From positions 62,001 through 126,000 of the forward strand of contig JAOSJU010000002.1 in NCBI GenBank assembly GCA_027493945.1: a DNA stretch of 64,000 nt, given 5' to 3'. The position numbers and the translations under genes were made by a program. This DNA comes from Burkholderiaceae bacterium (GTDB taxonomy: Bacteria; Pseudomonadota; Gammaproteobacteria; Burkholderiales; Burkholderiaceae_E). Positions 19,424-37,862 of this stretch are shown here, in pieces; positions within the stretch are counted from its first letter, which is position 1; each line of letters starts with the position of its first letter. The notes beneath the pieces were generated by a model. The model saw only the letters and a program-made list of their open reading frames with translations, had not been told where the DNA came from and did not search any database.

Positions 19424-19623
19424 CGGTTGGCATATGTGCTCTGGCCCTGACCCACGCAGCAGTCAGCTTTCCTGCGGAAGGCAACTGGCTGCTTCCTTAT
19501 AACGAATCCCGAACACACCGGGTTGTCTGCTAACCTTTCCCTTTGTGAGAGACGGCCGCCGCCTTCGCAATCGGTGTCTGGTCGATAACGATCGAGGTTT
19601 ACTGGTCTATTCGGGAAGGCGCG
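19424..19623. other. Left island junction, non-coding
   Basis: About 200 nt without a supported gene between the duplication end and the methyltransferase. It holds an imperfect inverted repeat at 19459-19492 (GCAGTCAGCTTTCC with GGAAGGCAACTGGCTGC) that could be a terminator for the hydratase gene or an end structure of the element. No clear -35/-10 pair was found for the methyltransferase. Short track ORFs here have no recognisable content. Confidence 0.5.
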
Positions 19624-20682
19624 ATGAACAAGGAACGTTCACGGCAATTCATGCAGAAGGTGGTCGGCGACGTCGGCACCGCAATGGCCGCGGCGCTGGT
19701 CTTCGTGGGCGACCACACGGGGTTGTTCGAGGCGATGGCGGGCGCCGGCCCCTTGGGCGCTGCCGATCTGGTCCGGCGAACTGGAATTCACTCACGATAC
19801 GTTGAGGAGTGGCTCTCGGCCATGGTCTGCGCGGGATACATCGCGCACGACTCTGCTCGCAACCAGTTCGAGTTGCCCGACGAGCACGCTATGTTCCTGA
19901 CCAATCGCTCCTCCGAGTATTACCTCGGCGGGATGTTCGCTGGCGTGCTCGGCGCGGTGACAATCGCGCCGCGATTGGTCGCAGCATTCGAGCGAGGCGA
20001 AGGTATCTCGTTCACCGAGTTCGGCGAGAATCTGCCGCTCGCGTTCGAAAGGATGAACCGCGCGGTCTACGAGAACCGACTCGTCCAGTCCTGGCTGCCG
20101 ACAATGCCCGAGGTCGTTCGGCGGCTTCATGCTGGTGGCCGCGCAATCGACGTCGGCTGTGGTACCGGCGTGGTTCCGGTGATCCTTGCGAAGGCGTTCC
20201 CGATGGCGCATATCGAAGGAATTGATCTCGATGCGCTATCGATCGAAATCGCCCGCCGTCACGCGCACGAAGGAGGTGTCGCCCAGCGCGTTCGATTCAT
20301 CCATGCGTCTGCCGACCTTTTGGCCAGGCAGGGCACTTACGATCTGATCACCACATTCGATGTCGTCCACGATCTGCCCGACCCCCGAGGAGTGCTGGCG
20401 CTGATCCGCAGCGCGCTGAACGAAGGTGGCAGCTACCTGATGGTGGAACCAAAGATGGACGATCGCCTCGAGCGCAATCGCGAGAATCCGTTCGGCCGGA
20501 TGCTCTACTCGATAAGCTGTCTGCACTGCATTCCGCAGTCGCTCGCACAGGGCGGGCCAGGATTAGGCGCGTGCTGGGGACCATCGCAGGCGCGCCGCCT
20601 CGCCGCGGACGTCGGATTCAGTTACTTCGATGCACTCCCGATACACAGCCCCGCGCTAGCGTTCTACGAACTTCGTGCATGA
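19624..20682 (+). CDS. Class I SAM-dependent methyltransferase with N-terminal winged-helix region
   Basis: 352 residues. The N-terminal ~100 residues (LFEAMAGAGPLGAADLVRRT, then SRYVEEWLSAMVCAGYI) look like the dimerisation/winged-helix part of small-molecule O- or C-methyltransferases. The SAM motif is RAIDVGCGTGVVPVILA, followed by IEGIDLDALSIEIARRHA and FDVVHDLPDPRGVLALI. It resembles Rv2258c-like transcription-associated methyltransferases in layout; substrate unknown. It is the first gene of the island, alone on the plus strand, convergent with the TetR gene. Base composition is lower in GC than the genes to its left. Confidence 0.82.
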   Translation: MNKERSRQFMQKVVGDVGTAMAAALVFVGDHTGLFEAMAGAGPLGAADLVRRTGIHSRYVEEWLSAMVCAGYIAHDSARNQFELPDEHAMFLTNRSSEYYLGGMFAGVLGAVTIAPRLVAAFERGEGISFTEFGENLPLAFERMNRAVYENRLVQSWLPTMPEVVRRLHAGGRAIDVGCGTGVVPVILAKAFPMAHIEGIDLDALSIEIARRHAHEGGVAQRVRFIHASADLLARQGTYDLITTFDVVHDLPDPRGVLALIRSALNEGGSYLMVEPKMDDRLERNRENPFGRMLYSISCLHCIPQSLAQGGPGLGACWGPSQARRLAADVGFSYFDALPIHSPALAFYELRA

Positions 20683-20702
20683 ACTGGCGCGGCAGTTGCA
20701 CC

Positions 20703-20772
20703 CGCGAGAAGGACAAACGGGAGGAACGCTGGCTGAAGCGCAGTCGCGCGGGATGTCGAGCGCAAAGCCTTC
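20703..20772 (+). pseudogene. Decayed fragment of an ABC-F gene 3' end
   Basis: These bases match 16268-16339, the C-terminal coding end of the ABC-F gene: 37 of the first 41 positions agree, and the match then weakens with a 2-nt gap until GCCTTC. Translated, REKDKREERWLKRS here corresponds to REKDELEERWLERS there. It has no start, domain or stop of its own and lies between the convergent methyltransferase and TetR genes. I read it as debris from an ABC-F homologue left by recombination. Confidence 0.7.
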
Positions 20773-20797
20773 TCCGGCAATGTGGGGCGCCCCAAAT

Positions 20798-21442
20798 TCA
20801 TCGGCCCTGCGAGATTGATGCCGCCGCTCGAGGTTTCGGTTCGAGCCCGCCCCGGACAAAGTTCATGTAAATCTCCACGATCCTGTCGGGGATCTCACCA
20901 TTCCTGTCGCACAGAGCCAGGTACTGCTGCCCGTAGTAGTGTTTCGCCGCAATCAAGAAGAGCGCAACGCCATCGAGTTCGACGCCCTTTATTGCCCGAA
21001 TCTCACCATTCTTGCTTGCCTTGAGCAGCGATTTTCGATACCCGTTTATGATCTCCCTTTTGATGCCCTCGTAAGCGTCTGGAAGGAACGCCTCAGCCTC
21101 GTTCTGGAGACGGATGAAGGAGGGATTGCTTCGAATAAACCGGAAATATTGCCGGAACGAGCGCTCCTCGCGGACGAAGAAAGGCGCCTTCACCATCACC
21201 GCCGCGGTGACCTGTCGCCTCAGTTCGTGACTTTGGGCCGTGATGATCGCCTGGAGTAAGGCCTCCCGTGATTCGAAATAAGTGTAGAAGGACCCCGTGG
21301 CCACTTGGGCCTTGTTCGCAATGATCGCGACACTCGCACCCGCAAAGCCGCGGTCCGAGATGGCTTCCGCTGCTGCACGCAGCAGGCGGCTGATGGTGAG
21401 ACTGGCCTTCTCTTCCCGTGTGAGTTTGATATTTTTTGTCAC
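20798..21442 (-). CDS. TetR/AcrR-family transcriptional regulator
   Basis: 214 residues. The N-terminal helix-turn-helix is typical: ISRLLRAAAEAISDRGFAGA, then ANKAQVATGSFYTYFESREA. The C-terminal ligand-binding domain is helical and ends with a variable tail. Likely represses one or both island operons in the absence of an inducer such as a substrate or CoA ester; this is inference from position at the end of the left operon, 50 nt after the SDR stop. Candidate operators are the repeats at 25947-26012. SDR and TetR genes are probably cotranscribed, giving autoregulation. Confidence 0.9.
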   Translation of the reverse strand: MTKNIKLTREEKASLTISRLLRAAAEAISDRGFAGASVAIIANKAQVATGSFYTYFESREALLQAIITAQSHELRRQVTAAVMVKAPFFVREERSFRQYFRFIRSNPSFIRLQNEAEAFLPDAYEGIKREIINGYRKSLLKASKNGEIRAIKGVELDGVALFLIAAKHYYGQQYLALCDRNGEIPDRIVEIYMNFVRGGLEPKPRAAASISQGR

Positions 21443-21492
21443 ATTGCTGAACCGCGTGTTGGGCCCGTATCGACCCGGGTGCTAATCTGCCC

Positions 21493-22269
21493 TCAGACAG
21501 CCGTCATACCACCGTCGACCGCCGGGATCTGCCCCGTGATGTGCTTGCCGGCATTCGAGCAGAACAGCACCGCGGCGCCCTTCAGGTCCTCGTCATCACC
21601 GAGACGCTTCAATGGCGTGGCTGCCTTGACCCCTCCCTCGAACGCCGCCAGCGTGGCGCGGGCCATCCTTGACGGGAAGAAGCCCGGAGCGAGCGCATTC
21701 ACGGTGATGCCGTACTCGCCCCATTCGCCGGCGAGCGCACGCGTAAAGTTCACCAATCCGCCCTTGGTCGTATTGTAGGCAATCGTATTGTAGGTACCGA
21801 CCGGATTGCCACGCAGGCCGGCAACCGACGCAACGATCAGGATCCGGCCATACTTACGCGGAATCATCGATTTCCTGCCGATCTCCTGCGTCAGCAGGAA
21901 AACGCCGGTCAGGTTCAGGTCAACCAGCTTCTGCCACGCTTCGAGCGGATACTCGGCCGCCGGGGCGCCCCATGCCGCCCCGGCGTTATTCACCAGGACG
22001 TCGCAATGCCCCAGCTTCGCCAGCGCCGCATCGACGAATGCGTGCACCGCTTCGGGCTTGCCCAGGTCGGCCGAAATTGCGTGTGCCTTCACCCCCATGT
22101 TCGCGAGGTGTGCGACGGCGGCGTCGAGTTCGTTCTGCTTGCGCGCGGTGAGCACCACCTCGGCACCCATCTCGCCGAGTGCCTCGGCGATCTGCAGCCC
22201 GAGCCCGCGTGAGCCGCCAGTAACAATCGCCTTGCGGCCGCTAAGATCGAGGGAATGCTTCAACGGCAC
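21493..22269 (-). CDS. Short-chain dehydrogenase/reductase (SDR), classical type
   Basis: 258 residues, NAD(P)-dependent oxidoreductase of the FabG/gluconate-5-dehydrogenase type. Cofactor motif VTGGSRGLGLQIAEAL (TGxxxGxG), NNAG motif LVNNAGAAWGAP, catalytic Ser in ILIVASVAGL and Tyr-x3-Lys in YNTTKGGLVNFTRAL; C-terminal ITGQIPAVDGGM. The catalytic set is complete. In the left island operon after the 161-residue protein, with a 202-nt gap that holds no recognised gene. Probably oxidises or reduces a hydroxyl/keto group of the pathway intermediate. Confidence 0.9.
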   Translation of the reverse strand: MPLKHSLDLSGRKAIVTGGSRGLGLQIAEALGEMGAEVVLTARKQNELDAAVAHLANMGVKAHAISADLGKPEAVHAFVDAALAKLGHCDVLVNNAGAAWGAPAAEYPLEAWQKLVDLNLTGVFLLTQEIGRKSMIPRKYGRILIVASVAGLRGNPVGTYNTIAYNTTKGGLVNFTRALAGEWGEYGITVNALAPGFFPSRMARATLAAFEGGVKAATPLKRLGDDEDLKGAAVLFCSNAGKHITGQIPAVDGGMTAV

Positions 22270-22471
22270 GATATTCTCCAGTAGGTGTGGAACGGAATGA
22301 TGCTGCGCGCCACGGCTGCGGCATGCCTGACGCCGTGGTCATGTTCCGGTACGCGATGGCTCGTGCCGCGGCAAGCAGACGTGAGAGTTCCCGCAACGCA
22401 ATGACACCGCCCCGCCGTGTTCGACAGCGGAACGGAACCCCGTGCAGAGGCAATTCAAAGATGGTCGGCGG

Positions 22472-22957
22472 TCAGCCCTTCGCGCTCTCGGAGGGAGATC
22501 CGGCCGGTTCGTCGCCCTTCTTGCGCGGCTCACGCTTGGCGAGATACGCTTTCATCACGACCTGCCCCCAGCCGCCAGCCCGGACGCCACAGTCGCCGCA
22601 GGTAAAGTGGTTGTAGACCATCTCCGTGTCGTGCTGCCCCGCAACGAAGCGATCCTGTGCCATGCTCGCCAACTGTGGAATCGGGAGCATCGCATGCGCG
22701 CACCAGTTCCGCGTGCTGCGCTCGAAGTCCAGTAGCGAGAGTGCCTTGAAGAAGAGCTTGTCGCCGGGCTTCAGGCGGGCGCTGCAGCCATGCGAATGCG
22801 TAACCTCGACGACGAGATCGTTCTCGAGGACCTCCTTCGAGAACATCTTCTTCGCCGCCGCGGCGCGCTTCGGATCGTTCCTGAAGATCTCCAGTTCCTC
22901 GTCGGTGTACTGCAACGTCTTCTGGAACGCCTTCCAGTCGAAATCGTCCTGAGCCAT
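22472..22957 (-). CDS. Cys/His-containing protein of unknown function (TIGR04076-like)
   Basis: 161 residues, not securely assigned. Core: LVVEVTHSHGCSARLKPGDK, a central region with CAHAMLPIPQLASMAQDRFV and a C-terminal HFTCGDCGVRAGGWGQV. The pattern of a cysteine, GDK, a Cys-Ala hydrophobic helix and a small Cys pair recalls the uncharacterised TIGR04076 family. The Cys residues could bind metal. Starts 3 nt after the CCG protein stop, so it is tightly coupled to that redox gene; it may be an accessory electron-transfer or maturation factor. That role is inferred only from position. Confidence 0.6.
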   Translation of the reverse strand: MAQDDFDWKAFQKTLQYTDEELEIFRNDPKRAAAAKKMFSKEVLENDLVVEVTHSHGCSARLKPGDKLFFKALSLLDFERSTRNWCAHAMLPIPQLASMAQDRFVAGQHDTEMVYNHFTCGDCGVRAGGWGQVVMKAYLAKREPRKKGDEPAGSPSESAKG

Positions 22958-22960
22958 GAG

Positions 22961-24187
22961 TCATCTCCTTTGGTGGTGGAATGGTCGGTCAGTGCCTGCG
23001 TCGATCCGGGCACCCTCGGTATCCAGAGCCATCGCCTCGAGCAGCAGCCCTGCCACGTCCCGGATGGCAATCTGCTCTGAAAGAGCCTCCGATCGCGATG
23101 CGTCCTCCAGCATGTTGTTGCAATTCGGGCACGCGACCGCCAGGATCCTCGCTCCTGTCGCCTGCGCCTCGCGAACGCGGCTGCGACCCGGGCTGCGTGG
23201 CCCCAGCCCAACAAGACCCGTGAAGAAGTTTCCGCCGCCGCCGCCGCAGCACATGCCATGCTCGCCCGACCGCTCCATCTCGACTCGCTTCACACCCGGG
23301 ATCGCGTCGAGAACCTCACGCGGCGAATCGAACTCTCCGTTGTGACGGCCGAGGAAGCAGGGGTCGTGATAGGTCAGTTGGGACGGCATTGCCTTCTTCG
23401 GAACGAGCTTTCCATCACGCAACAGCTGCGTCAGCAACTGGGTGTAGTGAAGAACTTCGAACTGAGCCCCGAACCGCCGGTAGGTGACCTTCATCGCGTT
23501 GAATGCGTGTGGGCACAGCGTGACGATCCGGGTCACGCCGAGGGAGCGGAATTGCTCGATGTTCTGCCCCGCCAGATATTCGAACAGTTCCCACTCGCCG
23601 ACCTTTTCCACCTCGTTGCCGTCACAGTGTTCGTCTTCCGCCAGGATTCCGAACGACACGCCTGCGGCCTGCAATAGCCTGGCAACATTGCGCGCCAGCC
23701 TGATGCCCCGTTCGTCGTAGGATCCGACGTCTCCGACGTAGTAGAGGTAGTCGTGATGTGCGTACTTCTCGATACCCATGCCCCCCGCCCAGCGACCGCG
23801 CTCCTCCTGGGGAAGTCGATACGGATTTCCGTAGACACTGACGCTCTTGAGGAAGTCCCTGAGCTCTGGCGGCAAGGCGCCTGCCTGAAACCCATCCTGT
23901 TTGAGCGCCTCGATGACCCGCAAGGGCTCGACGCCGACCGTGGGATTGCACTGCACGTCGCAGGCGCCGCAGCTTGTGCAGCTCAAGACCGTTCGCATCG
24001 CGTCAGCAGTGAGCACCGCACGGTCCGCCAACGCCGCCCCGGCCAGCGACACGCGCCCGATCGCGTAGTGCGAATCGAAGCCGAACTGCATCCCCGATGG
24101 GCAGATTGGCTCGCTCGTCTTCCAATCGAGTCGACAGGCTCCGCACTTCAGGCAACTGGCAACATTGCTGCTTACTTCGCTCAACAT
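22961..24187 (-). CDS. (Fe-S)-binding CCG-domain oxidoreductase subunit, copy 1
   Basis: 408 residues. N-terminal ferredoxin-like clusters: CLKCGACRLDWKTSEPICPS and CTSCGACDVQCNP. Two CCG-type domains follow: the first around VGDVGSYDERG with CPHAFN, the second with YHDPCFLGRHNGEFDSPREV and HGMCCGGGGGNFF, as in HdrB/HdrD, GlcF and LctE-type subunits. Passes electrons from the adjacent FAD dehydrogenase to a quinone or other acceptor. Lies 54 nt after the FAD gene and is clearly homologous to the protein at 28549-29799 (YVGDVGSYDERG and YHDPC shared). Confidence 0.88.
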   Translation of the reverse strand: MLSEVSSNVASCLKCGACRLDWKTSEPICPSGMQFGFDSHYAIGRVSLAGAALADRAVLTADAMRTVLSCTSCGACDVQCNPTVGVEPLRVIEALKQDGFQAGALPPELRDFLKSVSVYGNPYRLPQEERGRWAGGMGIEKYAHHDYLYYVGDVGSYDERGIRLARNVARLLQAAGVSFGILAEDEHCDGNEVEKVGEWELFEYLAGQNIEQFRSLGVTRIVTLCPHAFNAMKVTYRRFGAQFEVLHYTQLLTQLLRDGKLVPKKAMPSQLTYHDPCFLGRHNGEFDSPREVLDAIPGVKRVEMERSGEHGMCCGGGGGNFFTGLVGLGPRSPGRSRVREAQATGARILAVACPNCNNMLEDASRSEALSEQIAIRDVAGLLLEAMALDTEGARIDAGTDRPFHHQRR

Positions 24188-24241
24188 GGGATCTTTCTCC
24201 GGCTTGCTACGCGATTCGACCTGGTTGCCGCGGGATGACTT

Positions 24242-25723
24242 CTACTCCAGAGAGTAGGCCCCCCCTTGCAGAATGCCGGAGGGATCGACTACGTGCTTGA
24301 GCGCGCTGAGGATCTCGGCATAGGCCGGATTTATCCGCTTGAGCAAGCTCCGGTTGGGAATGGTATGCACGGCACCGAACTCCGAAGTCGCACGGCTGTA
24401 TGCTTCGCGGATACAGTTGCCGGCCCGGTCGACGCTGCTCTGATCCTGCCGATTGAACAGGAACTCCTGCTCGACATAGACCGTGGAGCAGCGATCGTAG
24501 GGGATGACGATGACCTCGGGGTCCAGCGGGCTGCCATCCACCGGGTCGAGCAATTCGTACTTCTTCGCGAGGTCCGCGCCCAAACGCCGGATTCCGGCAG
24601 CATGCCTGGGCGGAACGCAGGCGATGAGGGGCATGAAGCCGGTGTACGGTGTGAACATGCGCAGGACCTTCTGGCTTCCGCCCTCGGACAACTCACGAGC
24701 AATCGACGTCAATTCGGCGCCCAGCACGAGCTCCCTCCCTCCTTCGCTCGTGAGAACATCGTTGACTAACTCCCGATTAAGTTCGAACTGGCGTGACATG
24801 CCGCCGAGCCCGGTCGACATCAGAAAGGCTGGCAACTGCGCCTCGACGCGCCCTCTCTCGACGGGATCGAGAATCGCCTTCGGACTCAGGAAAACATGCT
24901 TCCAGGTGCTCGCGCTGAAGAAGAATGCATATCGTGTGATGTCAAGCCTCTCGAGATGCTTGAGGGCACCCATCGCCTGATCGAAGTCGTCGAATCCGTA
25001 GAGAGCCACATCCTCATGCTGCATCCTGGGCCGAAGCATCGTGACCATTTTGGTAACGACGCCGAAGTTCCCCAGGCTGCCTCTGAACAGGCCGGTCAGG
25101 TCCGGCCCATAGGCATACCGGAAGTAGCGGTTCAAGTCGCCGCGCTCCCCTGCCCATGAGCCGGTGCGCAGCAGCTCCCCATTGGGCATAACCACCTCGA
25201 GCGTCGCCGCGCGATCGGCCATGCGCTTGCTCGAGTAAGCGGTGACGTTCGTCAGCAGGAAGTTCCCGACCGGGCCGCCCCGGTAGGGGCCGAGGATCGG
25301 CATCGCGTCCAGCCCCACGCGATTGGCCTCCTTGCGCAGCTTGCCCCAGCTCACCCCGGGCTCGACGGTCGCCGTCATGGTGTCCTCGTCGATCTCCCAG
25401 ATCCGCGTCATCCGTTTCAGGTCCAGAACGATTCCGCCCCGGTACGGAATCGCCGACGCCGCGATGTTGACCCCGGAACTGCGCGGATACACGGGGATGC
25501 CACATGAGTTTGCCAGCCTCATCAGCGCCTGAACCTGGTCGGTCTCCTCGGGCATGACCACGCATTCTGGTAGCGGCACTTCGCGGCGCATCAGGAGCGA
25601 GTACGAGTCGCTCATGTAGGTCAGCAGATCTTCCGGGCGCCGCGAGGCGTTCGCGACCCCGACGATACCCTGCACCTTGGCAAACGCATCGCCATCCAAT
25701 CGAGGCACTTCTTCGTGAGTCAT
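24242..25723 (-). CDS. FAD-linked (PCMH/VAO-type) oxidase/dehydrogenase, copy 1
   Basis: FAD-binding domain near the N-terminus: MPEETDQVQALMRLANSCGI, YPRSSGVNIA, then TATVEPGVSWGKLRKEANRV and PVGNFLLTNVTAYSSKRM; the C-terminal part resembles glycolate/lactate or 4-cresol dehydrogenase subunits and ends LKHVVDPSGILQGG. The track ORF starts at a GTG at 25867; I chose the ATG giving MTHEEVPRL because AAGGA lies just upstream and homology begins soon after; length is then 493 residues. First gene of the left operon, with the Fe-S gene after it. Substrate is probably a hydroxy acid or hydroxylated aromatic/alicyclic side chain; not determinable. Confidence 0.85.
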   Translation of the reverse strand: MTHEEVPRLDGDAFAKVQGIVGVANASRRPEDLLTYMSDSYSLLMRREVPLPECVVMPEETDQVQALMRLANSCGIPVYPRSSGVNIAASAIPYRGGIVLDLKRMTRIWEIDEDTMTATVEPGVSWGKLRKEANRVGLDAMPILGPYRGGPVGNFLLTNVTAYSSKRMADRAATLEVVMPNGELLRTGSWAGERGDLNRYFRYAYGPDLTGLFRGSLGNFGVVTKMVTMLRPRMQHEDVALYGFDDFDQAMGALKHLERLDITRYAFFFSASTWKHVFLSPKAILDPVERGRVEAQLPAFLMSTGLGGMSRQFELNRELVNDVLTSEGGRELVLGAELTSIARELSEGGSQKVLRMFTPYTGFMPLIACVPPRHAAGIRRLGADLAKKYELLDPVDGSPLDPEVIVIPYDRCSTVYVEQEFLFNRQDQSSVDRAGNCIREAYSRATSEFGAVHTIPNRSLLKRINPAYAEILSALKHVVDPSGILQGGAYSLE

Positions 25724-25891
25724 CACGGGGTCCTTGAGAAAGTCTGCATCTTCCGGCCCGGCACTTCGCGGTCGGCCCCGGCGTTTCTCCATCCCATCGC
25801 TGCCGCCTCGAACGGCGGGCGAGCCCGTTCGCGACTTCCCCCGGGCAGATCCTGGCTCGATCGACACATGTCACGCCTGCTCGGGGCAACA

Positions 25892-25921
25892 ACTATATGG
25901 CCGGCCGAATCATGCTGTCAA
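25892..25921 (-). promoter_or_regulatory. Sigma70-type promoter of left island operon
   Basis: On the minus strand TTGACA (bases 25921-25916) is followed after 18 nt by TATAGT (25897-25892), close to consensus. It would initiate near 25885 and read the FAD, Fe-S, 161-residue, SDR and TetR genes, leaving a leader of about 160 nt before the chosen FAD start. Confidence 0.7.
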
Positions 25922-25946
25922 TAAACCCGAATATGCATTCAATTTT

Positions 25947-26012
25947 TGTATCATGTGTCATCGTGAACGATTCCTGCTTCAATGTCATCCTGCAAAGATG
26001 ACGGTTGATACA
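25947..26012. promoter_or_regulatory. Candidate operator array between the divergent island promoters
   Basis: TGTATCA-TGT-GTCATC at 25947-25962 reappears inverted as GATGAC-GGT-TGATACA at 25997-26012, 13 of 16 positions matching, the mismatches falling only in the three central bases. A further GTCATC half-site is at 25984-25989, forming a second inverted repeat with GATGAC 25997-26002. The array lies midway between the two divergent promoters. It fits an operator for the island TetR regulator, though another regulator is possible. Confidence 0.65.
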
Positions 26013-26051
26013 TCCTACTTCTTCTCTCTGCAAAATCCAGATTCTCAGGCA

Positions 26052-26079
26052 TTGACATCTTGAAGACGAGTCTTATAGA
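26052..26079 (+). promoter_or_regulatory. Sigma70-type promoter of right island operon
   Basis: TTGACA at 26052-26057, 16-nt spacer, TATAGA at 26074-26079. Transcription would start near 26086, leaving about 105 nt of leader before the DUF169 gene. Together with the minus promoter it accounts for the 467-nt gap between genes, which contains no other feature I could support. Confidence 0.7.
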
Positions 26080-26190
26080 CTTTCCGAAACCTGATTCGTT
26101 CTTCGGCTTTTGCCCGGTACGCAATTTCAGGATTTCCCGACGCTGCGAACGAGGCTTGCCCGAATACGCGGCATTCCCGAGGAGGTGGAG

Positions 26191-26958
26191 ATGGACGGCC
26201 AGGACTGGAAGACGATCGTCGCCGAGCTCGACCAGCTACTGAAGCTGAGGTCGGTGCCGTTCGGGATGAAGCTGTTCGAGCGTCGAGATGAGATGGAGGC
26301 GATCCCGAAGATCCGTCGCCCGAAGGCGGTATACACGCTGGACCAGCTTGTTGCGCAGACGGCGCGTCTGGGTTGGACGGTGGGCGTCACCTCGGACGAT
26401 CTCGTTGGCCCCCAGTGCCGGGCGGTGGTCGGCTTGGGCAATGCCAAGGACCCCGAGTGGAAATCGGGCCAGCACATGACTGGCGTCTGGTACGCCACGC
26501 AGGCCGATGCTTCGGCCCACCAGCAGGCAATGCACTGTGTACCGGATGGACGGTACGCGGCTCTGGCAACCTCCCCAATCGCCTCTGGCCGCATTCCCGA
26601 GCCCGACATCGTCCTCTTCTACGCGACACCCGGTGCGATGATGTACTTCATCAACGGCCTTCAGTGGTCGGGCTATCGCCGCTTCGACTGGAGCGTCGTA
26701 GGCGAGTCCGCCTGTGCGGACTCCTGGGGCCGAGCCCTGGTGACCAGGCAACCGAGTCTGTCGATTCCGTGTTTCGCCGAACGTCGATATGGCGGTGTGA
26801 CCGACGAGGAAATGCTCATGGCGCTTCCACCCGAATTTCTGGAGGCGGCAATCAATGGCATGAGGGCGCTCTCCCGGAACGGGCTGCGCTATCCGTTCCC
26901 GGCGTACGGAATCCAGATGGACGTTCGTGCGGGAATGAGCGCGAGCTATTCGAGCTGA
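26191..26958 (+). CDS. DUF169 family protein
   Basis: 255 residues from the ATG giving MDGQDWKTIVAELDQLLKLR, which is preceded by GAGGTGGAG; the track ORF starts earlier with unrelated sequence. Features of the family: KLRSVPFGMKLFERRDEM, the C-terminal SIPCFAERRYGGVTDEEMLM and mid-region PEPDIVLFYATPGAMMYFIN. Conserved Cys and aromatic residues suggest ligand or cofactor binding, but no DUF169 activity is established to my knowledge. First gene of the right operon, upstream of a FAD dehydrogenase and its Fe-S partner. No signal peptide or membrane segment. Confidence 0.82.
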   Translation: MDGQDWKTIVAELDQLLKLRSVPFGMKLFERRDEMEAIPKIRRPKAVYTLDQLVAQTARLGWTVGVTSDDLVGPQCRAVVGLGNAKDPEWKSGQHMTGVWYATQADASAHQQAMHCVPDGRYAALATSPIASGRIPEPDIVLFYATPGAMMYFINGLQWSGYRRFDWSVVGESACADSWGRALVTRQPSLSIPCFAERRYGGVTDEEMLMALPPEFLEAAINGMRALSRNGLRYPFPAYGIQMDVRAGMSASYSS

Positions 26959-27085
26959 CCTGCATCCGAGGCGCCACGATCAGGACGGACGCCCCATTCG
27001 GCGAACGACGTCATCGCGGACGGCGTATGGCATTGCAGACGGGCGCGACTCGAGCATGCAGCCAGACTCCCCAGCACGGAGGGGA

Positions 27086-28545
27086 ATGTATGAATTCAGT
27101 TGGCATATGAGCAACGTGGGCGAATCGCATCCACTGCTCGGACCCCTCAGCGAGATCGTGGGAGTGCACCACGTAGCCGATGAGGATTTCGTACGCAGAT
27201 CGTACACGCGCGGGCCGTTCCAGGTACTCGGCGGCGGCAGCCGGGGTAGAGTCCCCGGCATTGTCGTCAGGCCGGCAGACAGCGATCAGGTCGCGCGGAT
27301 CATGCGCCTGGCGAACGAGTCGCTCACCCCGGTCGTGCCCAAAGGCGGAGGCGGCAGCGCTGCGGCCTTCCCGCCGCATCACGTCGGCCACGACGGAAAC
27401 ATCCTGCTCGACACCACCCGGCTCAATCGTATCGACATCGACCGCGAGGCGATGACGGTCACAGCGCAGTCAGGGGCCATCCTCTCAAACGTGCAGGCCG
27501 AAGCCCGGAAGCGCGGGTTGCATTTCTTCGCGGTGGACGTCCCGGTTCACATGGACACGATCGGGGGCGTCTGCAGTGGCTTTCTCGGGGGCGGCGAGCC
27601 GTCGGACGTCGCCACCGCCGGGCCGATGAACGCGTACTTGCTGGGTCTCACGGTGGTGTTGCCCACCGGCCTGGTGGTCCGGACCGGCGGGGGCCGGGCA
27701 CCAACGTGCGGCAGCCGAAGACACTGCACCGCGAGGCGGGCAGTCCCGACATGACCGGAATGTTCGTGGGCGATGGAGGGGCCTTTGGCATCAAGACCGA
27801 GGCGGCCTACTCGCTGCATCCGGCGCCTACCGCTTACTTTCAGGCCGCCTACGAGATCGGCTCCTCGGAACGGATGTGGGCGGCGTATACGCGGCTGGTC
27901 GAAACTGCGCCGTTTCCCTATACACGACTCCTGGCGTTTCGCGAGCCAGCCGGTACATGGCATTTCTTCGTTGTGATCAGGGGACATAGCGACGAGGAAG
28001 TCGCACTGAAGCGCTCGATCGCCGACGGCATCGTCGCCGAACACGGCGGGGGCGTCGCCAAAGATGGCGCGAACATCACCCGGATCGCGAAAATGTTCTC
28101 TGCACGGCGGCTGGGCCAGCAAGTGCTTCAGAGCGGCTCGGCGATGACCTATTTCGGTGAAGCGCTGATCCCACGGCCGAGCACCCTGGCATATCTGGCG
28201 ACACTCAACAAGCTGATCGACATCGAACTCGAGGAACTTCCCATCGTGAAGCGGGTCGAGTTTACGGTCCCCTTTCTCCGGTCCACGACGATCACGGGCG
28301 TGCTGCTCTACTTCGGCAACGGGACAACGCGCGACACGGTCAGCGAAGTCCTCTACAAGAAGACCTTCCACCAGTTGCACCGCATCATGTCACAGGAATT
28401 CGGTGGATTCACCGAGGCGTGCCAGGGTGAGCCGGCGGCGCTGAACGCCTCGATGTGGTCTCCCGAGTACAGGGAGTTCATGAAGAACATCAAGATGGCG
28501 CTGGATCCGAACGATATTCTGATGCCGTCGCTCTGGAAGATCTGA
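27086..28545 (+). CDS. FAD-linked oxidase/dehydrogenase, copy 2 (frameshift)
   Basis: Two overlapping ORFs form one protein of about 486 residues. N-terminal FAD domain: VVRPADSDQVARIMRLANES, TPVVPKGGGGSAAAFPP, TVTAQSGAILSNVQAEARKR and HMDTIGGVCSGFLGGG; C-terminal domain follows in the second ORF and ends MALDPNDILMPSLWKI. The frames join near 27690 in GGCGGGGGCC; one additional G would give TGGGPGTNVRQP. Start MYEFSWHMSN has a strong GGAGGGGA upstream. Distant homologue of the left-arm FAD protein. 3 nt before the second Fe-S gene, so they likely form a complex. Confidence 0.85.
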
Positions 28546-28548
28546 TTC

Positions 28549-29799
28549 ATGCTGATCAATCTTCTTGCGCTTCGCGAAAACGTCTACAAATGCGTCGGGT
28601 GTGGAGTCTGTCGCGGCATCTGGGAACGCGACGAAGAGGCGATGTGCCCGATTTTCGCCACCCGGATCGGGTTCGAGAGCGGCATGCCACGCGGCATGGT
28701 CACCGTGGCCCAGGATCTTCTGGAGGGTCACGTCAACCTCTCGCGTGCGATGGCCAATGCGTTCTACCGCTGCACGGATTGCGGGGCATGCGCAACGAAC
28801 TGCAATGCACTTTCGCGAACCGGCGAGCATATTATCGACGTACCGCGGGTTGCACGTGCGCTCCGTGCCGATCTGGTCGAGAGTTCGCTGGCGCCCCCTG
28901 CAGCCCGCGATGTCTTCAAGGCGCTCATCGCCACCGGTAACGCGTTCGGGCAGCCACCGGAACGGCGCGGCGACTGGGCTCGAAAATCGGGAGTCGAGCA
29001 GTTCGGACCTGGGCATGAGTTCCTGCTGTATGTCGGCGACGTCGGATCGTACGACGAAAGAGGTCAGGCGATGGCGCGCTCGGTCGCGCGACTGCTGCGC
29101 GCCGCAGGCATCTCCTTCGGCATCCTCGGCGAGCGCGAAGTCAGCGACGGCAACGACGTGAAGGCAATGGGTGAACTGGCATTGTTCGAGCATCTGGCCA
29201 AGACCAATATCGACGCCTTTCTCGACGCCGGCGTGCGCAAGATAATCTGCCTGGATCCTCACAGCTACAACTGCTTCACCAACGACTATCCTTCGCTTGG
29301 CGGAAAGTTCGATGTCTGGCACTACACGCAGCTCACGAAGGATCTCGCCCTCAGGGTCGGCCGGCGCGATTCGGTCGATCCTGCGCGGGATGCGACAGGC
29401 GTAGCCCCACGCTCGCAAACCTCGCGGGTCGCCTATCACGACCCGTGCTACCTCGGCCGGAAGAACGGCGAGTTCGAGGCGCCGAGGCGAAGCCTGTCGG
29501 CTGCAGGCGCGGACCTGGTCGAGATGCCGAGAAGTCGCCGGAATTCGTTCTGTTGCGGCGGAGGATCTGGAAACTTCTACACCGACTTGCTCGGCGGCGG
29601 CGTGAACAGTGCAGCCCGCGTCAGGGTTCGCGAGGCCGCCGCAACAGGCGCGGAGATCATTGCTGTGGCCTGCCCGATGTGCTCGAAGATGCTCGACGAT
29701 GCCGTCAAGAGCGAAAACCTCGACGGGCGCCTGAAGGTGACGGATATCGCACAGTTCATCCTGGCTGAATCGGAACATGAGCCGCGTCATGCCCATTGA
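28549..29799 (+). CDS. (Fe-S)-binding CCG-domain oxidoreductase subunit, copy 2
   Basis: 416 residues. N-terminal clusters CVGCGVCRGIWERDEEAMCP and CTDCGACATNC; CCG domains with LLYVGDVGSYDERG and YHDPCYLGRKNGEFEAPRRS, then SFCCGGGSGNFY and VACPMCSKMLDDA. Homologous along its length to the left-arm protein but well diverged, so the duplication is old or the two were acquired separately. Likely electron acceptor for the FAD dehydrogenase just upstream. Followed after 63 nt by livH. Confidence 0.88.
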   Translation: MLINLLALRENVYKCVGCGVCRGIWERDEEAMCPIFATRIGFESGMPRGMVTVAQDLLEGHVNLSRAMANAFYRCTDCGACATNCNALSRTGEHIIDVPRVARALRADLVESSLAPPAARDVFKALIATGNAFGQPPERRGDWARKSGVEQFGPGHEFLLYVGDVGSYDERGQAMARSVARLLRAAGISFGILGEREVSDGNDVKAMGELALFEHLAKTNIDAFLDAGVRKIICLDPHSYNCFTNDYPSLGGKFDVWHYTQLTKDLALRVGRRDSVDPARDATGVAPRSQTSRVAYHDPCYLGRKNGEFEAPRRSLSAAGADLVEMPRSRRNSFCCGGGSGNFYTDLLGGGVNSAARVRVREAAATGAEIIAVACPMCSKMLDDAVKSENLDGRLKVTDIAQFILAESEHEPRHAH

Positions 29800-29862
29800 G
29801 CCGGGGTTCGATACTGGTTATCGCGACAACGGCGTCCAGCCCCTCACCAGTTGTGCCCGGTC

Positions 29863-30741
29863 ATGACGAAGATTGTCGACATCGCAATCAACGGCCTCGT
29901 TTTTGGCGGCGTGTACGCGATTCTCAGCGTCGGATTCGCATTGATCTTCGGCGTGACGCGGATTCTCAACATGGCGCATACGGCGCTATACATGCTCGCG
30001 GCCTTCCTGATCCTCGCCGGAATTTCCGCCTTCCAGTTACCGCTCCTGCTGTCCATCATCGGAGCGATCATCGTCACCACCGCGTTCGGCATGCTCGTCT
30101 TCAAGCTCCTGTACGACAGAGTGAAGGAACACCAGAACGCGGTGATGATCATCTCGGTTGCCGTGGCCCTCATTCTCCAGGAAGTGCTGCTCCTGACGGT
30201 CGGCGGCCACTATCGAGGAATTCCGCCCTTCAGCAAGGGATTCGTCACCCTGTTCGGCTCCGGGGTGACACACCAGCATCTGATCGCGATCCTGATGTGC
30301 GGGGTGGTGCTGCTGAGCCTCTGGCTGCTGCTGACGCGCACATCGTTGGGGCAAGCCATTCGTGCCGTCGCCCAGGACCGGGAAGTGGCGACGCTGATGG
30401 GCATCGACATCAGCAGGATCCTGCTCGTCGTTATGGGGATCTCGACGGCTCTCGCAGCGCTGGCCGCCGCGGTGGTCGCCCCGATCCAGGTTCTCAGCCC
30501 CTTGATGTGGGTTCAGCCACTCACCATTGTGCTCGCGGCGGTGGTCATCGGTGGGCTCGGAAGTATCGGCGGAAGTGTCATCGGCGCCTTCGTCCTGGGT
30601 TACACCGAGGCGATCGTGGTGAATCTGTTGCCAAGCGGCGGCTACCTGGCCGCACCGGCCGCCATGCTGATTCTGATCGTCGTACTGCTCATCCGGCCCG
30701 AAGGGTTGCGTGGTGTCGTGTTCGAAGAGGAGCGCATTTGA
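29863..30741 (+). CDS. Branched-chain-type ABC transporter permease LivH
   Basis: 292 residues, about eight hydrophobic segments, inner membrane. Family motifs: INGLVFGGVYAILSVGFALI at the N-terminus and RAVAQDREVATLMGIDISRI in the cytoplasmic coupling loop, with VIGGLGSIGGSVIGAFVLGY near the end. Start is the ATG giving MTKIVDIAING; a TTG 12 nt upstream is the track start. The stop overlaps the livM ATG by one base (TGATG). Given the neighbouring CoA ligase and oxidoreductases, the imported compound is more likely an organic or aromatic acid than an amino acid. Confidence 0.9.
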   Translation: MTKIVDIAINGLVFGGVYAILSVGFALIFGVTRILNMAHTALYMLAAFLILAGISAFQLPLLLSIIGAIIVTTAFGMLVFKLLYDRVKEHQNAVMIISVAVALILQEVLLLTVGGHYRGIPPFSKGFVTLFGSGVTHQHLIAILMCGVVLLSLWLLLTRTSLGQAIRAVAQDREVATLMGIDISRILLVVMGISTALAALAAAVVAPIQVLSPLMWVQPLTIVLAAVVIGGLGSIGGSVIGAFVLGYTEAIVVNLLPSGGYLAAPAAMLILIVVLLIRPEGLRGVVFEEERI

Positions 30742-31837
30742 TGAAGGGTAACCTGGCGCTCCTCGTCTCCTGGATCCGCGGCGAGGTCATCGACATACCA
30801 GGCCGCGTCATCGCGGTACTGTTCCTTGGGGTACTCCTGCTCGTGCCGTTCGTGGCGCCGAATCCGTACTACCTCCGGATCATCGCACTCGCGGCGATCT
30901 TCGCGATCTACGCCGCCAGTTGGGACGTGCTCTCCGGCGTGACGGGCCAACTCAACCTGGGCCACGGGTTGTTCTTCGGCGTGGCCGCCTACTTGGCCGC
31001 GCTCATGAACCTTCATGCCGACATCGGGCCCTGGCTCGGCATTCCGCTCGGCGCACTCGGTGCGATGGTCATCGGGGTCACTGTCGGATTGCCGGCGCTC
31101 AGGTTGCGCGGCATCTACCGGCGCTCGTGACGCTGGCTTTCCCTGTCATCGCAAGCGCGCTCGTGTTCGTGTTCCCGAACTTCACCGGCGGCGAGGTCGG
31201 ATTGTCCGGTGTCCGCTCGCTGGCCGAATCCCGGGTGACCGCATACTATGTCGTGATTGCAGTGTTCGTCGCTTCGGTTCTCGTCATGTGGAAGCTCGCC
31301 GACCCGAAGAGCAAGATCATCCGGATCGGCGTCATCCTGCACGCGATACGTCAGGATGAAATCACCGCCCGGGCATCCGGGATCAACAGCGTCCGGTACA
31401 AACTCCTCGCGTTCGCTGTCAGTGGTTTCTTCGCCGGAATCGCCGGCGGACTGTACGTGCACTTCATCCGGGTTGCGGGCCCCGGCATGTTCGATCTCTT
31501 CTTTTCGTTCCAGGTCGTGCTCTGGAGCATCTTCGGCGGAATCGGGACGATCTATGGCGCCGTCGCCGGTGTCTTCATCCTGTATCCGACGATCGAATTC
31601 CTGAGTCTGGCGGAGCAGGCGGAACCCTACAAGATCATTGCATTCGGCAGTGTGCTGATTCTGACCCTGCTGTTCATGCCGGAGGGCCTCGCTGTCTGGG
31701 TCATCGACAGAATCGAAACGAAGTGCCTGCGCTGCAAGGTCGTCAACTTCTCGGCCCGCAAGCACTGCAGGGCGTGCGGGGCCCCTCTGGTTCGTGAACT
31801 GGACCCGGCCGATGCCGATCCCGCCAGGCCTGCGTGA
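30741..31837 (+). CDS. Branched-chain-type ABC transporter permease LivM with C-terminal zinc ribbon (frameshift)
   Basis: Permease partner of LivH. N-terminal half from MKGNLALLVSWIRGEVIDIP to LPALRLRGIY; C-terminal half from LVTLAFPVIASALVFVFPNF. One missing base near 31122 (ATCTACCGGCGCTC, expected Ile-Tyr-Leu-Ala-Leu) joins them into about 365 residues. Coupling loop: HAIRQDEITARASGINSVRY. After the last membrane segment there is an added cytoplasmic tail CLRCKVVNFSARKHCRACGA, a CxxC-x12-CxxC zinc-ribbon pattern not usual in LivM. Stop is 57 nt before the CoA ligase. Confidence 0.87.
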
Positions 31838-31894
31838 CCAAGGGCAATGCAGGTGAGCGCACGAACAGGAACTTGCGAGCAATTAGGAGACGGT

Positions 31895-33602
31895 ATGGGA
31901 GACAACACGAACGATCCAGACATTGCTAGCGAGCGTTCGCGCGCCTCGGTCGTCGAGGGGCTGGGGATTTCCTTTCCCGTTACGACGATCGGCGATCTCT
32001 TCGACACCGTGGCGGGAAAGTGGGCGAATCGAACCGCGATCGTCTTCTATGGTCGCAAGTTCTCGTTCCGGGAGTTACGCGAGAAAGTCGACAAGTTGGC
32101 TGGCGCCCTCATGGGACTGGGCGTTCGCAAAGGCGACAGAATCGCAATGATGTTGCTGAACTCGCCCGAATACGCGATCACGTTCTTTGCGGCAGCGAAG
32201 ATCGGTGCGGTGGTGACACCGATCAGCCCGGTGTACGTTTCCTCGGAGGTCAAGCACCAACTCGAGGACAGTGGTGCCGGGGTTGTCGTATGCATGGACA
32301 TGCTCTACGAGACGATCGAGAAGTCGGGGGTTTTGGTCGACGAGGTGATCCTCGTCGATGTCACCGAATCCCTGCCGCTCACACGCAAGCTCTTCGGCAA
32401 GAGCATCCTGCGGAACGTCTACACGGACAAGGCGAAAAATCAGTCCGGCCACCACAACAACCGACGCATTCACCGGATCGGTGAACTCATCTCGAGGTCG
32501 GATGCCACGCCGCCACGGGTCGACATCGATCCTGAACGTGACCTCATCGCCTTGCCGTACACAGGCGGAACGACCGGCGCTCCCAAGGGTGTCCAGATCA
32601 CGCATCACAACGTCGTGGCGAACCTTCTTCAGTTGAATGCGTCGCTGCCGTGTCTCGAGGAGGGCAAGGAAACCAGCGTCTCGTACATGCCCTTCTACCA
32701 TGCCGCGGGGCAGAGCCTGAGCCTGATCCTGTGCACGCTGAACGGCTACACACAGGTTGTTCTCACCACCCCTGACCTGGACGAAATCGTGCAAGCGATC
32801 ATCCGATACGGTGCCACGTTCTTCGTCGGCGCGCCGGCAATCTACGAATCCCTGAAGGACTTCGAGAAATCGGGACGGATCGACTGGCGACGTCTCAAGG
32901 TCCTCATCTGCGGCGCCGATGCGCTTCACGAGCACACGGCCAACGAATGGAAGACTCGCTGGGGCGTGACCCTGACCGAGGGATACGGGATGACCGAAAC
33001 GACCGGCGGCACGCACATGAATCCACTTGGGGCGCAGCGTGTCGGCTCCGTCGGGAAGCCGATGGCGGGCGTGTCGGCCGTCCTTCTGGATCCAGACGTC
33101 GATGCATACGCGGCACCCGGCGAGAAAGGCGAGATCGGGGTACGGGGGCCCGCAGGTCGGACTCGGGTACTGGAAGCGTCCGGAAGCCACCCGGGAATGC
33201 CAGGCGGTGATCGAGGGCATCACCTGGTGGCGAACAGGCGATATCGCCCGGGTCGACGACGACGGATACTTCTACTTCTACGAGAGAAAGCGCGACCTGA
33301 TCAAGTACAAGGGCCTGCGGGTGTTTGCGCGCGAGGTCGAAGAGGTATTGATGGCGCACCCGATGATCAAGAGTGTCGGGGTGGTCGGCGTGCCTGACCA
33401 GAAGGTCGGCGAGAACGTCAAGGCGGTGATCGTCCTCGAGACCGACGCGCACGGACTCCTGACCGAGGGGCAGATCCTCGAGTTCTGCGAGGACAAGCTG
33501 GCTCACTACAAAATTCCGAGGATCATCGAGTTCGTCGGGGAAATCCCCAGAACGGACATCGGCAAGGTCTCTCGTCGAGAGATCCGTGAGGAGACCCAGT
33601 GA
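31895..33602 (+). CDS. AMP-dependent acyl-CoA synthetase/ligase (frameshift)
   Basis: Activates a carboxylic acid to its CoA thioester with ATP. About 568 residues. Motifs: ALPYTGGTTGAPKGVQITHH (P-loop), GYGMTETTGGTHMNPLG (A5), then after the frame change WWRTGDIARVDDDGYFYFYE (A7) and VGEIPRTDIGKVSRREIREE (A10 with the catalytic Lys). The frames join near 33150 at CGGGGGCCCGCAGG; removing one C gives VRGPQVGLGYW. Start MGDNTNDPD has TAGGAGA upstream. It sits inside the transporter operon and its stop overlaps livG by one base, so import and CoA activation are coupled genetically. Confidence 0.9.
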
Positions 33603-34378
33603 TGCACGAACCCCTCTTGGTCGTCCGGAACTTGACCAAGGCATACGGCGGGATCCTTCCGGCCAACAACCTGAACTTCGAGATCCATCACGACGAGATC
33701 GTCGGGATCATCGGGCCGAACGGCGCCGGGAAGTCGACGCTGATGCGGCTCATTGCCGGTGTCCTCAGGCCGACCTCCGGACAGATCCTCTTCAAAGGCA
33801 CCGACATTACGGGGCAGGAGATCTCCAAGACGGTCAACATGGGGCTCGCCTCCACGTTCCAGATCGTGCGACCGTTCCGGCACCTTCCGGTGATCGCCAA
33901 CGTCATGGTCGGATGCCTGTCACCTCGATCGAAGCGGAAGGGCGAATGGGTGAAGACGGTCGAGCAGCGCGCGGCCAATGCCCTCGAATTCTGCGGCATC
34001 GCCGATCTTGCGAAGGAATCAGCCTCGGTGCTGTCGCACGGCGACCTCAAGCGACTCGAGCTCGCACGGGCGATCGCGACCGAACCCGATCTGCTTCTGC
34101 TCGACGAACCCCTGGGCGGCCTGAATCCGACCGAAGCAAGACTGGTCGCGCGCTCGCTCAAGCGACTTCACAAGGGAGGCCGGTTCGGTCGTCTCCATAG
34201 CGAAGGACCGGCGATGATGATCGTCGAGCACAAGCTTTCCGAACTGATGTCGATCGTCGACAGGGTGATCGTCATCAACCTCGGCAAGATCATCGCGATC
34301 GGGTCGCCGGAAGAGATCGTCAAGAACGATGCCGTAATCGAAGCCTATCTCGGAAGGGACAACAGCCTTGCAGCTTAA
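33602..34378 (+). CDS. Branched-chain-type ABC transporter ATP-binding protein LivG
   Basis: 258 residues. Walker A GPNGAGKST, Q-loop STFQIVRPF, signature VLSHGDLKRLELARAI (LSHGD in place of LSGGQ, as LivG proteins vary here), Walker B LLLLDEPLGG and H-loop MMIVEHKLSELM. The ATG overlaps the ligase stop (TGATG); a GTG one codon upstream is the track start. Energises import with LivF on the cytoplasmic side of LivHM. Confidence 0.9.
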   Translation: MHEPLLVVRNLTKAYGGILPANNLNFEIHHDEIVGIIGPNGAGKSTLMRLIAGVLRPTSGQILFKGTDITGQEISKTVNMGLASTFQIVRPFRHLPVIANVMVGCLSPRSKRKGEWVKTVEQRAANALEFCGIADLAKESASVLSHGDLKRLELARAIATEPDLLLLDEPLGGLNPTEARLVARSLKRLHKGGRFGRLHSEGPAMMIVEHKLSELMSIVDRVIVINLGKIIAIGSPEEIVKNDAVIEAYLGRDNSLAA

Positions 34379-35117
34379 AGTTCAGGGCCTGTCGGTTCGT
34401 TACGACCAGGCGACGGTCCTCAACAACGCCGCGCTCGAGGTCGGCAAGGGCGAGGTCGTCGGCATTATCGGTCCGAACGGTGCCGGGAAGACAACCCTGC
34501 TCCGGGCGATCGTCGGTCTGGTTGGCTGGGAGCGTGAGTCGCTCAAGGGAACTGTCGGCGGGAAAATCACTCTGCGCGGGAGCGTGCTCCTGAATGGGGA
34601 GGAGATCTCGCATCTACCTCCGAACGAGATCGTGCGTCGCGGGCTCGTGCTCTGCCCCGAGCGCGGGCGTCCCTTCAGGGAGATGACCGTCCGGGAGAAC
34701 CTCGAGGTCGGGGCCTACCTGGCTAGGAGCAAGGCGGTGGTCGAGGAGCGGCTCGCGCGCGTCTTCGAGCTCTTTCCGATCCTCGAGGAACGCCAGAACC
34801 AGATCTCCGGGATCCTCTCAGGTGGCGAACGGACGATGCTGGCAATCAGCAGATCATTGATGTCGGATGTGCAGCTGCTCGTGATCGACGAGCCGTCGGT
34901 AGGGCTTGCGCCGCTCGTCAAGGATCTTCTTTGCGAGCGGATCAAGGATATCCATCGAATGGGGATCACGGTCCCGGTCACCGAGCAGGACATCGGTTTT
35001 GCGTTCAAGCTGATCCAGCGAAGCTACGTGCTTTCGCAGGGCCAGATGATCGCGTCGGGTACTCCGGAAGCGTTACTGTCCGACGACATGATTCGGAAGA
35101 CGTATCTGGGGTTGTAA
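34368..35117 (+). CDS. Branched-chain-type ABC transporter ATP-binding protein LivF
   Basis: 249 residues. Walker A GPNGAGKTT, Q-loop CPERGRPFREMTVRENL, signature ILSGGERTMLAISRSL, Walker B LLVIDEPSVGLAP, and TEQDIG in the H-loop position, where LivF proteins usually carry Gln. TTG start, overlapping the livG end by 11 nt, which suggests coupled translation. Residues 60-75 carry a short insertion relative to typical LivF, around WERESLKGTVGGK. Confidence 0.9.
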   Translation: MQLKVQGLSVRYDQATVLNNAALEVGKGEVVGIIGPNGAGKTTLLRAIVGLVGWERESLKGTVGGKITLRGSVLLNGEEISHLPPNEIVRRGLVLCPERGRPFREMTVRENLEVGAYLARSKAVVEERLARVFELFPILEERQNQISGILSGGERTMLAISRSLMSDVQLLVIDEPSVGLAPLVKDLLCERIKDIHRMGITVPVTEQDIGFAFKLIQRSYVLSQGQMIASGTPEALLSDDMIRKTYLGL

Positions 35118-35149
35118 GTCAGTCAACGACACAGAGAGGAGACTCCGGT

Positions 35150-36460
35150 ATGAGCTGGAAGATCAGTCGACGCCGTCTGATGGGATACGCGGCCGCAACG
35201 GCAGCTGGCATCGGTGGGGCACATGGCCCGGCACGCGCGGCCGGCAAGCCCATCAGGATCGGGATCGTGGGGCCCATGAAATACGTGCAGGGCGAGCACT
35301 CCTGGTACGGCGCGGAGATCGCCGCCGAAGAGATCAATGCGGGCGGCGGCATCAACGTCAATGGCACGAAGCACCCGATCGAGCTCGTTCGGGTGGATAC
35401 GAACGAGATCCTCAGCACCGTGGACGCGACGTCGGCGGTCGAGCGTGCCATCACGATCTCCAAGGTGAACTTCCTCGTCGGGGGGGCAAGTTCCTCGGCA
35501 ATCATGGCGATGCAGGAGGTCGCCATGGACTACAAGACCATCTTTCTGCTCGGAGGATCCGGCTCTCATCCCGAGATCACCGCGCGAGTGGGCCGGAACT
35601 ACGCACGATACAAGTATTTCTTCCGCCCATCGCCGATATCGGCCACTTATATCGTCGACATGGTCGTGGAGAGCGCGTTGGAGCTCGGCCGCATCATCAG
35701 GCGGGACCTCGGCATCGCGCGGCCGAAAGTGGCCTTGCTTTTCGAAGAGGCGAAATGGCTCGATTCCCAGATCCCCGCCTACCAGAAGATATTCCCCGAA
35801 AAGGGGATGGATGTGGTCGGTCTCTGGAGAATGTCGATCAAGGACCTTGACGTGTCCGCCCAGCTCGGTGCGATCCGCGCTGCAGGCGCGCAGATCCTGA
35901 TCCCGATGACGTCCGGACCCGTGGCGATTCCGGTCTACAGGCAGATCGGCGAGCTCCAGATCCCGGTCGCCGTAACAGGCGTCAACGTCGAGGCGGAGGG
36001 CGCGAAATTCTGGGAAGCAACCGGAGGATCGGCAGCGTACCTCGGCGTGACCCTGACATCGTCGTCGGCGCCGTTCTCGAAGCGCACCGTACCTTTCGTC
36101 GAAAAATTCAGGAAGAAGCACGGCGTAAATCCGATCCTGACCGCCGCGGGCAGCTACAACGCGATCCTGCCGCTTGCCGAAGCCATCGAGCGTGCAAAGA
36201 CGATCGAGGCGGACGCCGTCGTGCCGGAACTCGAGAAGACGGACTTCGACGGCACCTCAGGCCGACTCGTGTTTGACAAGAACCACGACGTGCGATACGG
36301 GTCGGGCTACTCTGGCGCATCGGCAGGACAATGGTTGCCGCCGAACGGCGAGTCGGTCATATGGTGGGCGACGAAACGATCGGACGGTAGCGCTGTGCCG
36401 GGCTTGGTCGAATACAAGTTGCCGCCTTGGATGGTCACCCATTGGAAGAAGGCCGGCTAG
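35150..36460 (+). CDS. Periplasmic ligand-binding protein of Liv-type ABC transporter
   Basis: 436 residues; MSWKISRRRLMGYAAATAAG is a twin-arginine-type signal, cleaved probably after GPARAA. Mature protein is a type I periplasmic binding fold: IRIGIVGPMKYVQGEHSWYG, AAEEINAGGGINVNGTKHPI, LVGGASSSAIMAMQEVAMDY. Captures the substrate for LivHMGF. AGAGAGGAGA precedes the start. The ligand is unknown; Tat export and overall divergence from LivJ/LivK fit a non-amino-acid ligand, by analogy with aromatic-acid-binding homologues. Confidence 0.88.
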   Translation: MSWKISRRRLMGYAAATAAGIGGAHGPARAAGKPIRIGIVGPMKYVQGEHSWYGAEIAAEEINAGGGINVNGTKHPIELVRVDTNEILSTVDATSAVERAITISKVNFLVGGASSSAIMAMQEVAMDYKTIFLLGGSGSHPEITARVGRNYARYKYFFRPSPISATYIVDMVVESALELGRIIRRDLGIARPKVALLFEEAKWLDSQIPAYQKIFPEKGMDVVGLWRMSIKDLDVSAQLGAIRAAGAQILIPMTSGPVAIPVYRQIGELQIPVAVTGVNVEAEGAKFWEATGGSAAYLGVTLTSSSAPFSKRTVPFVEKFRKKHGVNPILTAAGSYNAILPLAEAIERAKTIEADAVVPELEKTDFDGTSGRLVFDKNHDVRYGSGYSGASAGQWLPPNGESVIWWATKRSDGSAVPGLVEYKLPPWMVTHWKKAG

Positions 36461-36466
36461 CCGTGC

Positions 36467-36496
36467 TCGATCACGGAGCGTGAACCCCGTGATCGA
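36467..36496 (+). terminator. Stem-loop after the transporter operon
   Basis: TCGATCACGG and CCGTGATCGA form a perfect 10-bp stem with a 10-nt loop, starting 7 nt after the binding-protein stop. There is no T run, so it is either a Rho-assisted terminator or an RNA-stabilising 3' end. The following SDR gene may have its own promoter in the next 110 nt; no convincing one was found. Confidence 0.55.
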
Positions 36497-36610
36497 ACAT
36501 CCGGAGGACGATGTGGCGTAGTGCACGACACCTGTATTCCATTAGAAGAATATGCACCTGCGCATGGCTCGGTGCTTGATCTCGACAATTGAGGCTCATC
36601 CGGAGAGGAA

Positions 36611-37495: not shown

Positions 37496-37610
37496 TGGCC
37501 ATGCCGGGATGGGTAATGGAGCGACATCTCCAGGCACAATGAAGTACTGAAACGCAGCGAATTGGGTGCGCCGCTCAACAAAGGGCACAATGAATCGTCT
37601 TGAACGGGGC

Positions 37611-37862
37611 CTCACCGGCGACGGCGGCGCCAGCCACTTCCTCGCGACCCGCCTGCCCTACCCGCTCGCCTACGAATTGCTGGCCAGCGGCCAGCCGATC
37701 GGCGCGCCGCGCCTGCACGCGCTGGGGCTGGTGAACGCACTGGCGGCACACGAGCGCGACAACTTCGTCGCGGCGCTGTTTCACGACGACGGCGGCGAAG
37801 GCATCGAGGCCTTCCTCGCCCGGCGCCCGCCGCGCTTCGAACGCGACGCGGGCGGCCGCTGA
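37611..37862 (+). pseudogene. Truncated enoyl-CoA hydratase remnant (right copy of island-flanking duplication)
   Basis: In-frame remnant of the hydratase at 18618-19415: GDGGASHFLATRLPYPLAYE onward, ending ERDAGGR at the same stop. It lacks the N-terminal two thirds and 43 codons within the remaining part. Its final 120 nt (37751-37870, 8 past the stop) are identical to 19304-19423; the upstream part differs at about one base in 14. Track ORF 37566-37862 includes unrelated upstream codons. The duplicate end marks the right edge of the island. Confidence 0.9.

Follow-up and report, generated by a model that had tools for sequence, protein, structure and literature searches.

What governs two operons that run in opposite directions out of one short stretch of DNA, and could the means of governing them have arrived with the genes themselves? 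The locus that raises these questions is the interval 25892-26079 of a 64-kb window (the whole stretch of DNA that we analysed), and the evidence supports reading it as a control region that serves two divergent operons, one in each direction. Here, we take in turn its promoters, the genes on either side, the repeats that lie between the promoters and the protein that might act on them.

The promoter pair

A sequence-only reading of this DNA had claimed two near-consensus promoters, and a letter-by-letter check found their boxes to be exact. On the minus strand, P- (25892-25921, TTGACA-18-TATAGT, 11/12) reads into the left operon, with TTGACA at 25921-25916, an 18-bp spacer and TATAGT at 25897-25892; on the plus strand, P+ (26052-26079, TTGACA-16-TATAGA, 10/12) reads into the right operon, with TTGACA at 26052-26057, a 16-bp spacer and TATAGA at 26074-26079 (an alternative -10 box, TAGACT, set behind an 18-bp spacer, likewise scores 10/12). 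Transcription would start at about 25885 and 26086, if the start sites are placed 7 nt past each -10 box.

Sequences as good as these are scarce. The pattern TTGACA-N16-18-TATANT occurs once in the 64-kb window against an expectation of 0.00 and five times in the 4.28-Mb genome, P- among them, and not one of 3000 dinucleotide shuffles of the region produced a promoter pair of equal quality. Both promoters are, in other words, true outliers beyond chance, strong and of the sigma-70 type, and they share a region (25892-26081) that at 41% GC is AT-rich against the roughly 62% of the DNA around it. A promoter whose -35 box matches the consensus is as a rule controlled by repression and does not depend on an activator. 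No operator-like motif common to the cores of P- and P+ was found.

The acquired island and its operons

The surrounding DNA is an island of 18.2 kb (19424-37607) whose GC content, 61-63%, falls below the 70-73% or so of its host. It sits between an enoyl-CoA hydratase gene and a phosphotransferase (APH) gene, which adjoin each other in most of the other genomes of the genus that have both (in one of them, for example, 22 bp apart). The 3' end of the hydratase gene recurs in shortened form at the right border (37608-37870), where 120 bp match the left copy exactly; this duplicate suggests that the island went in by homologous recombination or along with the end of a gene that it carried. We saw no integrase on the island. 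We also considered that the contig might be a plasmid and rejected the idea, as its tRNA genes and the synteny of its host genes with those of relatives point to a chromosome.

Five genes make up the left operon, all on the minus strand: an FAD-binding oxidase of the FAD_binding_4 family (24242-25723, its likely start being the ATG at 25723 behind AAGGA, within a longer reading frame that reaches 25867), an Fe-S protein with Fer4 and CCG domains (22961-24187), a 161-residue protein without a family match (22472-22957), a short-chain dehydrogenase (21493-22269) and, last, a FadR-like regulator of the TetR family (20798-21442), recognized by domain and by fold. The 161-residue protein contains cysteine, has no match in Pfam or NCBIfam and has no relative among plasmids. 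On the plus strand, the right operon opens with a DUF169 protein (26191-26958, its ATG at 26191 behind AGGAGG), continues with a second FAD-binding oxidase (27056-28545, split by a frameshift near 27.7 kb) and a second Fe-S/CCG protein (28549-29799) and ends in a long tail (29851-37495) of LivH- and LivM-like permeases, an AMP-binding ligase, two ATPases, a substrate-binding protein and a short-chain dehydrogenase.

The two FAD/Fe-S pairs are divergent paralogues, 44% identical in the Fe-S proteins and 33% and 24% identical in two parts of the FAD proteins. The two operons are catabolic, with these paired oxidase and Fe-S proteins, the acyl-CoA ligase, the Liv-type transporter and the dehydrogenases. 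The apparent frameshifts, at 27700 and, in the AMP-binding ligase, near 33.1 kb (33100-33200), may be sequencing errors or decay. The substrate-binding protein (35200-36460) is 45% identical to a substrate-binding protein of Thermus thermophilus plasmids, the nearest among the plasmid proteins found; between its gene and that of the last dehydrogenase, at 36461-36500, an inverted repeat (GATCACGG/CCGTGATC) without a run of T could possibly form a hairpin for RNA processing or attenuation.

Where else might such a cluster be found? We looked for relatives of the left FAD protein (517 residues) in 74 genomes of the family, 300 of the order, 369 of the class and 398 of the phylum (for class and phylum, with a joined FAD1+FeS2 query and two candidates scored per genome), as well as in a scan of GTDB contigs and a plasmid collection. 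Nothing beyond GlcD-like similarity of a generic kind came up, and no homologous cluster was found in any of these collections. Orthologues of the DUF169 protein, 64-76% identical, do occur in 22 genomes of the order, in gene contexts unlike this one, and upstream of them neither the 16-bp repeat described below nor the promoters appeared beyond chance. The GC content drops, the flanking genes are neighbours in relatives and no counterpart of the left FAD gene was found in the 74 family and 300 order genomes, so both operons must have been acquired horizontally as one unit, together with the control region that they share.

The repeats between the promoters

Exactly between P- and P+ lies an inverted pair of 16-mers, each a candidate regulator site: TGTATCAtgtGTCATC on the plus strand (25947-25962) and, at 25997-26012, its partner GATGACggtTGATACA, which on the minus strand reads TGTATCAaccGTCATC. 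They match at 13 of 16 bases, and the three mismatches are contiguous and central. The letters are thus as the earlier reading gave them; whether chance alone would supply them depends on what one counts. Scored generically, as the best ungapped inverted repeat of the region, and set against shuffles, the pair is not significant (p = 0.11-0.27 at a mismatch cost of 1 to 1.5), and at a mismatch cost of 2 the best inverted repeat of the region is instead a commonplace one with 7-bp arms. If the score asks instead for two perfect blocks, each of 5 bp or more, with a spacer no longer than 4 between them, a statistic that we picked after the repeat had been seen, the same pair is rare (p = 0.0015-0.0075, about 0.004). 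Its significance varies, therefore, with the statistic, and the claim that it is the operator is not supported; as a candidate site it is suggestive only, with the prospects of its being functional and of its being fortuitous about even.

The position of the arms raises a second difficulty. The left arm stands 25 bp upstream of the -35 box of P- and the right arm 39 bp upstream of that of P+; counted from the inferred starts, they occupy about -62 to -77 and -74 to -89. Both are off the promoter cores, so a repressor bound there would not block polymerase. This is outside the usual place of a repressor, which tells against the proposal that one regulator silences both arms through the pair, and the arrangement suits an activator or a bystander better.

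Two further elements share the region. The third GTCATC (25984-25989) that had been noted as an extra half-site is present, as a check of the letters confirmed, and adds nothing by itself, because 47% of shuffles contain some 6-mer in three copies. With the right arm, it forms GTCATC-N7-GATGAC (25984-26002), which has perfect 6-bp arms and is the most TetR-like palindrome between the promoters, although for its length it is not significant alone. Over the spacer and -10 box of P+ lie overlapping small palindromes, AAGAC-GA-GTCTT and AGTCT-TAT-AGACT (26063-26081), which by their position are an unproven alternative candidate for a repressor site; 5-bp arms are common in such DNA, and these too are not significant alone. 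No counterpart was found at P-.

Could the pair, then, be a chance similarity in an AT-rich stretch, with the promoters real and regulation seated elsewhere (for example, in the palindromes that lie across the -10 box of P+) or absent in the new host? We give this somewhat less than an even chance. The generic statistic favours it, as does the ordinariness of the triple GTCATC, and half of the 190-bp windows over the 64 kb contain an inverted repeat that scores as high, though most of those windows are GC-richer. A DNA hairpin or cruciform was rejected with a z of only -1.4, a value that also agrees with chance. Against it stand the contiguous central mismatches, a form that few shuffles reproduce, and the placing of the pair exactly between the two promoters. 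As for RNA, the left leader is less stable than its shuffles, and no known RNA elements other than tRNAs were found.

A second possibility is that the 16-mers are true sites of an activator that works on P- and P+ alike from upstream, the left arm serving P- and the right arm P+. The centres of the arms, about -70 (P-) and -82 (P+), are typical of upstream activators, the arms are inverted as the promoters are divergent and the block-spacer-block form is uncommon in shuffles. We nonetheless think this rather unlikely: no gene of the AraC, LysR, GntR or CRP type was found on the island, consensus -35 boxes in both promoters would be unusual under activator dependence, and the distances rest on inferred start sites. 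A host regulator would need other copies of its site, and the search of the 4.28-Mb genome that had been proposed for the 16-mer returned no further copy at up to one mismatch and, at up to two mismatches, eight matches against seven for a reversed control pattern. We accordingly rejected a regulon of the 16-mer. That it is private to this locus is what one would expect of a dedicated rather than a global regulator. More improbable again is that a FadR-like TetR protein uses the two asymmetric 16-bp sites, paired in inverted orientation upstream of the -35 boxes, to control the divergent promoters from that distance, perhaps by activation and not by blocking polymerase. And that the pair is a remnant of an inverted duplication that also produced the two FAD/Fe-S pairs is hardly credible, since, paralogues though these are, their identities make them far too old for 16 bp of non-coding similarity to have survived unless selected, the DUF169 gene is on one side only and one arm stands 14 bp farther from its -35 box than the other.

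The candidate regulator and its described relatives

Which protein, then, might act here? We found no dedicated transcription factor on the island other than the TetR protein, which makes it the obvious candidate. No second regulator or shared operator was found in the other gaps of the island, whose known genes leave no space for another regulator; a winged-helix domain, of the Rv2258c type, does occur in the methyltransferase at 19624, but enzymes of that group usually have one. The TetR protein carries an N-terminal TetR_N helix-turn-helix (PF00440, 46.6 bits against a cut-off of 24), and its predicted model, of moderate confidence (mean pLDDT 75.8), is an all-helical TetR fold of nine helices whose top fold matches are all TetR proteins, with 6en8 and 6el2 ranked first. 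By sequence its nearest relative is SaFadR of Sulfolobus acidocaldarius (6el2, E = 2e-14). The suggestion that this protein is the obvious candidate is supported, in that it is alone on the island and that its nearest relative of known function represses a catabolic cluster; it is the most likely regulator of both promoters.

The account that we favour, at somewhat better than even, is that of an acquired, shared, divergent sigma-70 control region of two catabolic operons under their own FadR-like TetR repressor. Both operons and the control region would have arrived together on the 18-kb island; the TetR protein would keep both strong promoters off and, its gene being last in the left operon, would control its own synthesis through P-; and an acyl-CoA or another compound of the pathway would release the protein and turn both promoters on. 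The presence of an AMP-binding ligase in the right operon would be in keeping with an acyl-CoA as the inducer. The sequence shows the two promoters, the divergent layout and the island, on which no other dedicated regulator was found; we infer the repression, its ligand and its place of binding, for which the inverted pair (25947-26012) and the palindrome that spans the P+ -10 box are candidates, neither of them established. If the TetR link holds, then the island brings its own switch; this would explain how a catabolic unit of 18 kb could function as soon as it entered a new host, and the inducer would point to the island's substrate.

How does this compare with what has been described? Control regions of this type are familiar, and catabolic genes are ordinarily arranged in this way. 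SaFadR is an acyl-CoA-responsive repressor of a 30-kb lipid catabolic cluster that binds an intergenic region of divergent genes at a motif that is a 16-bp dyad, and its residues Y47, G48, Y51 and Y53 have been probed by mutation (PMC6449355). It is the nearest solved relative of the island protein in both sequence and fold, and it is through this similarity that the latter may be a FadR-type repressor released by acyl-CoA. The two are, however, only about 23% identical over the fold, and each SaFadR motif is a dyad, whereas each 16-mer here is asymmetric. In the alignment, the island protein retains the positions G48, F50, Y51 and Y53 of the recognition-helix region and has T, S and T in place of the DNA-contacting Y47, L49 and F52, so that the SaFadR binding sequence is not transferable.

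The closest described analogue is EdcR of the edc cluster of Caenibius tardaugens, whose operators are palindromes that lie over the -10 box of each of its divergent promoters, with conservation in a second species (PMC8700777). The likeness is one of plan: a TetR-family gene in the cluster (EdcR being a repressor), two divergent catabolic operons, a single intergenic region that holds their promoters and, in the edc cluster, a near-consensus promoter on one arm. The differences lie in the placing of the parts. The edcR gene is divergent and has its own promoter, whereas the TetR gene here ends an operon; and the EdcR operators sit on the -10 boxes, whereas the repeats here lie upstream of the -35 boxes and, of palindromes that overlap a promoter core, there are only the small ones at the -10 box of P+.
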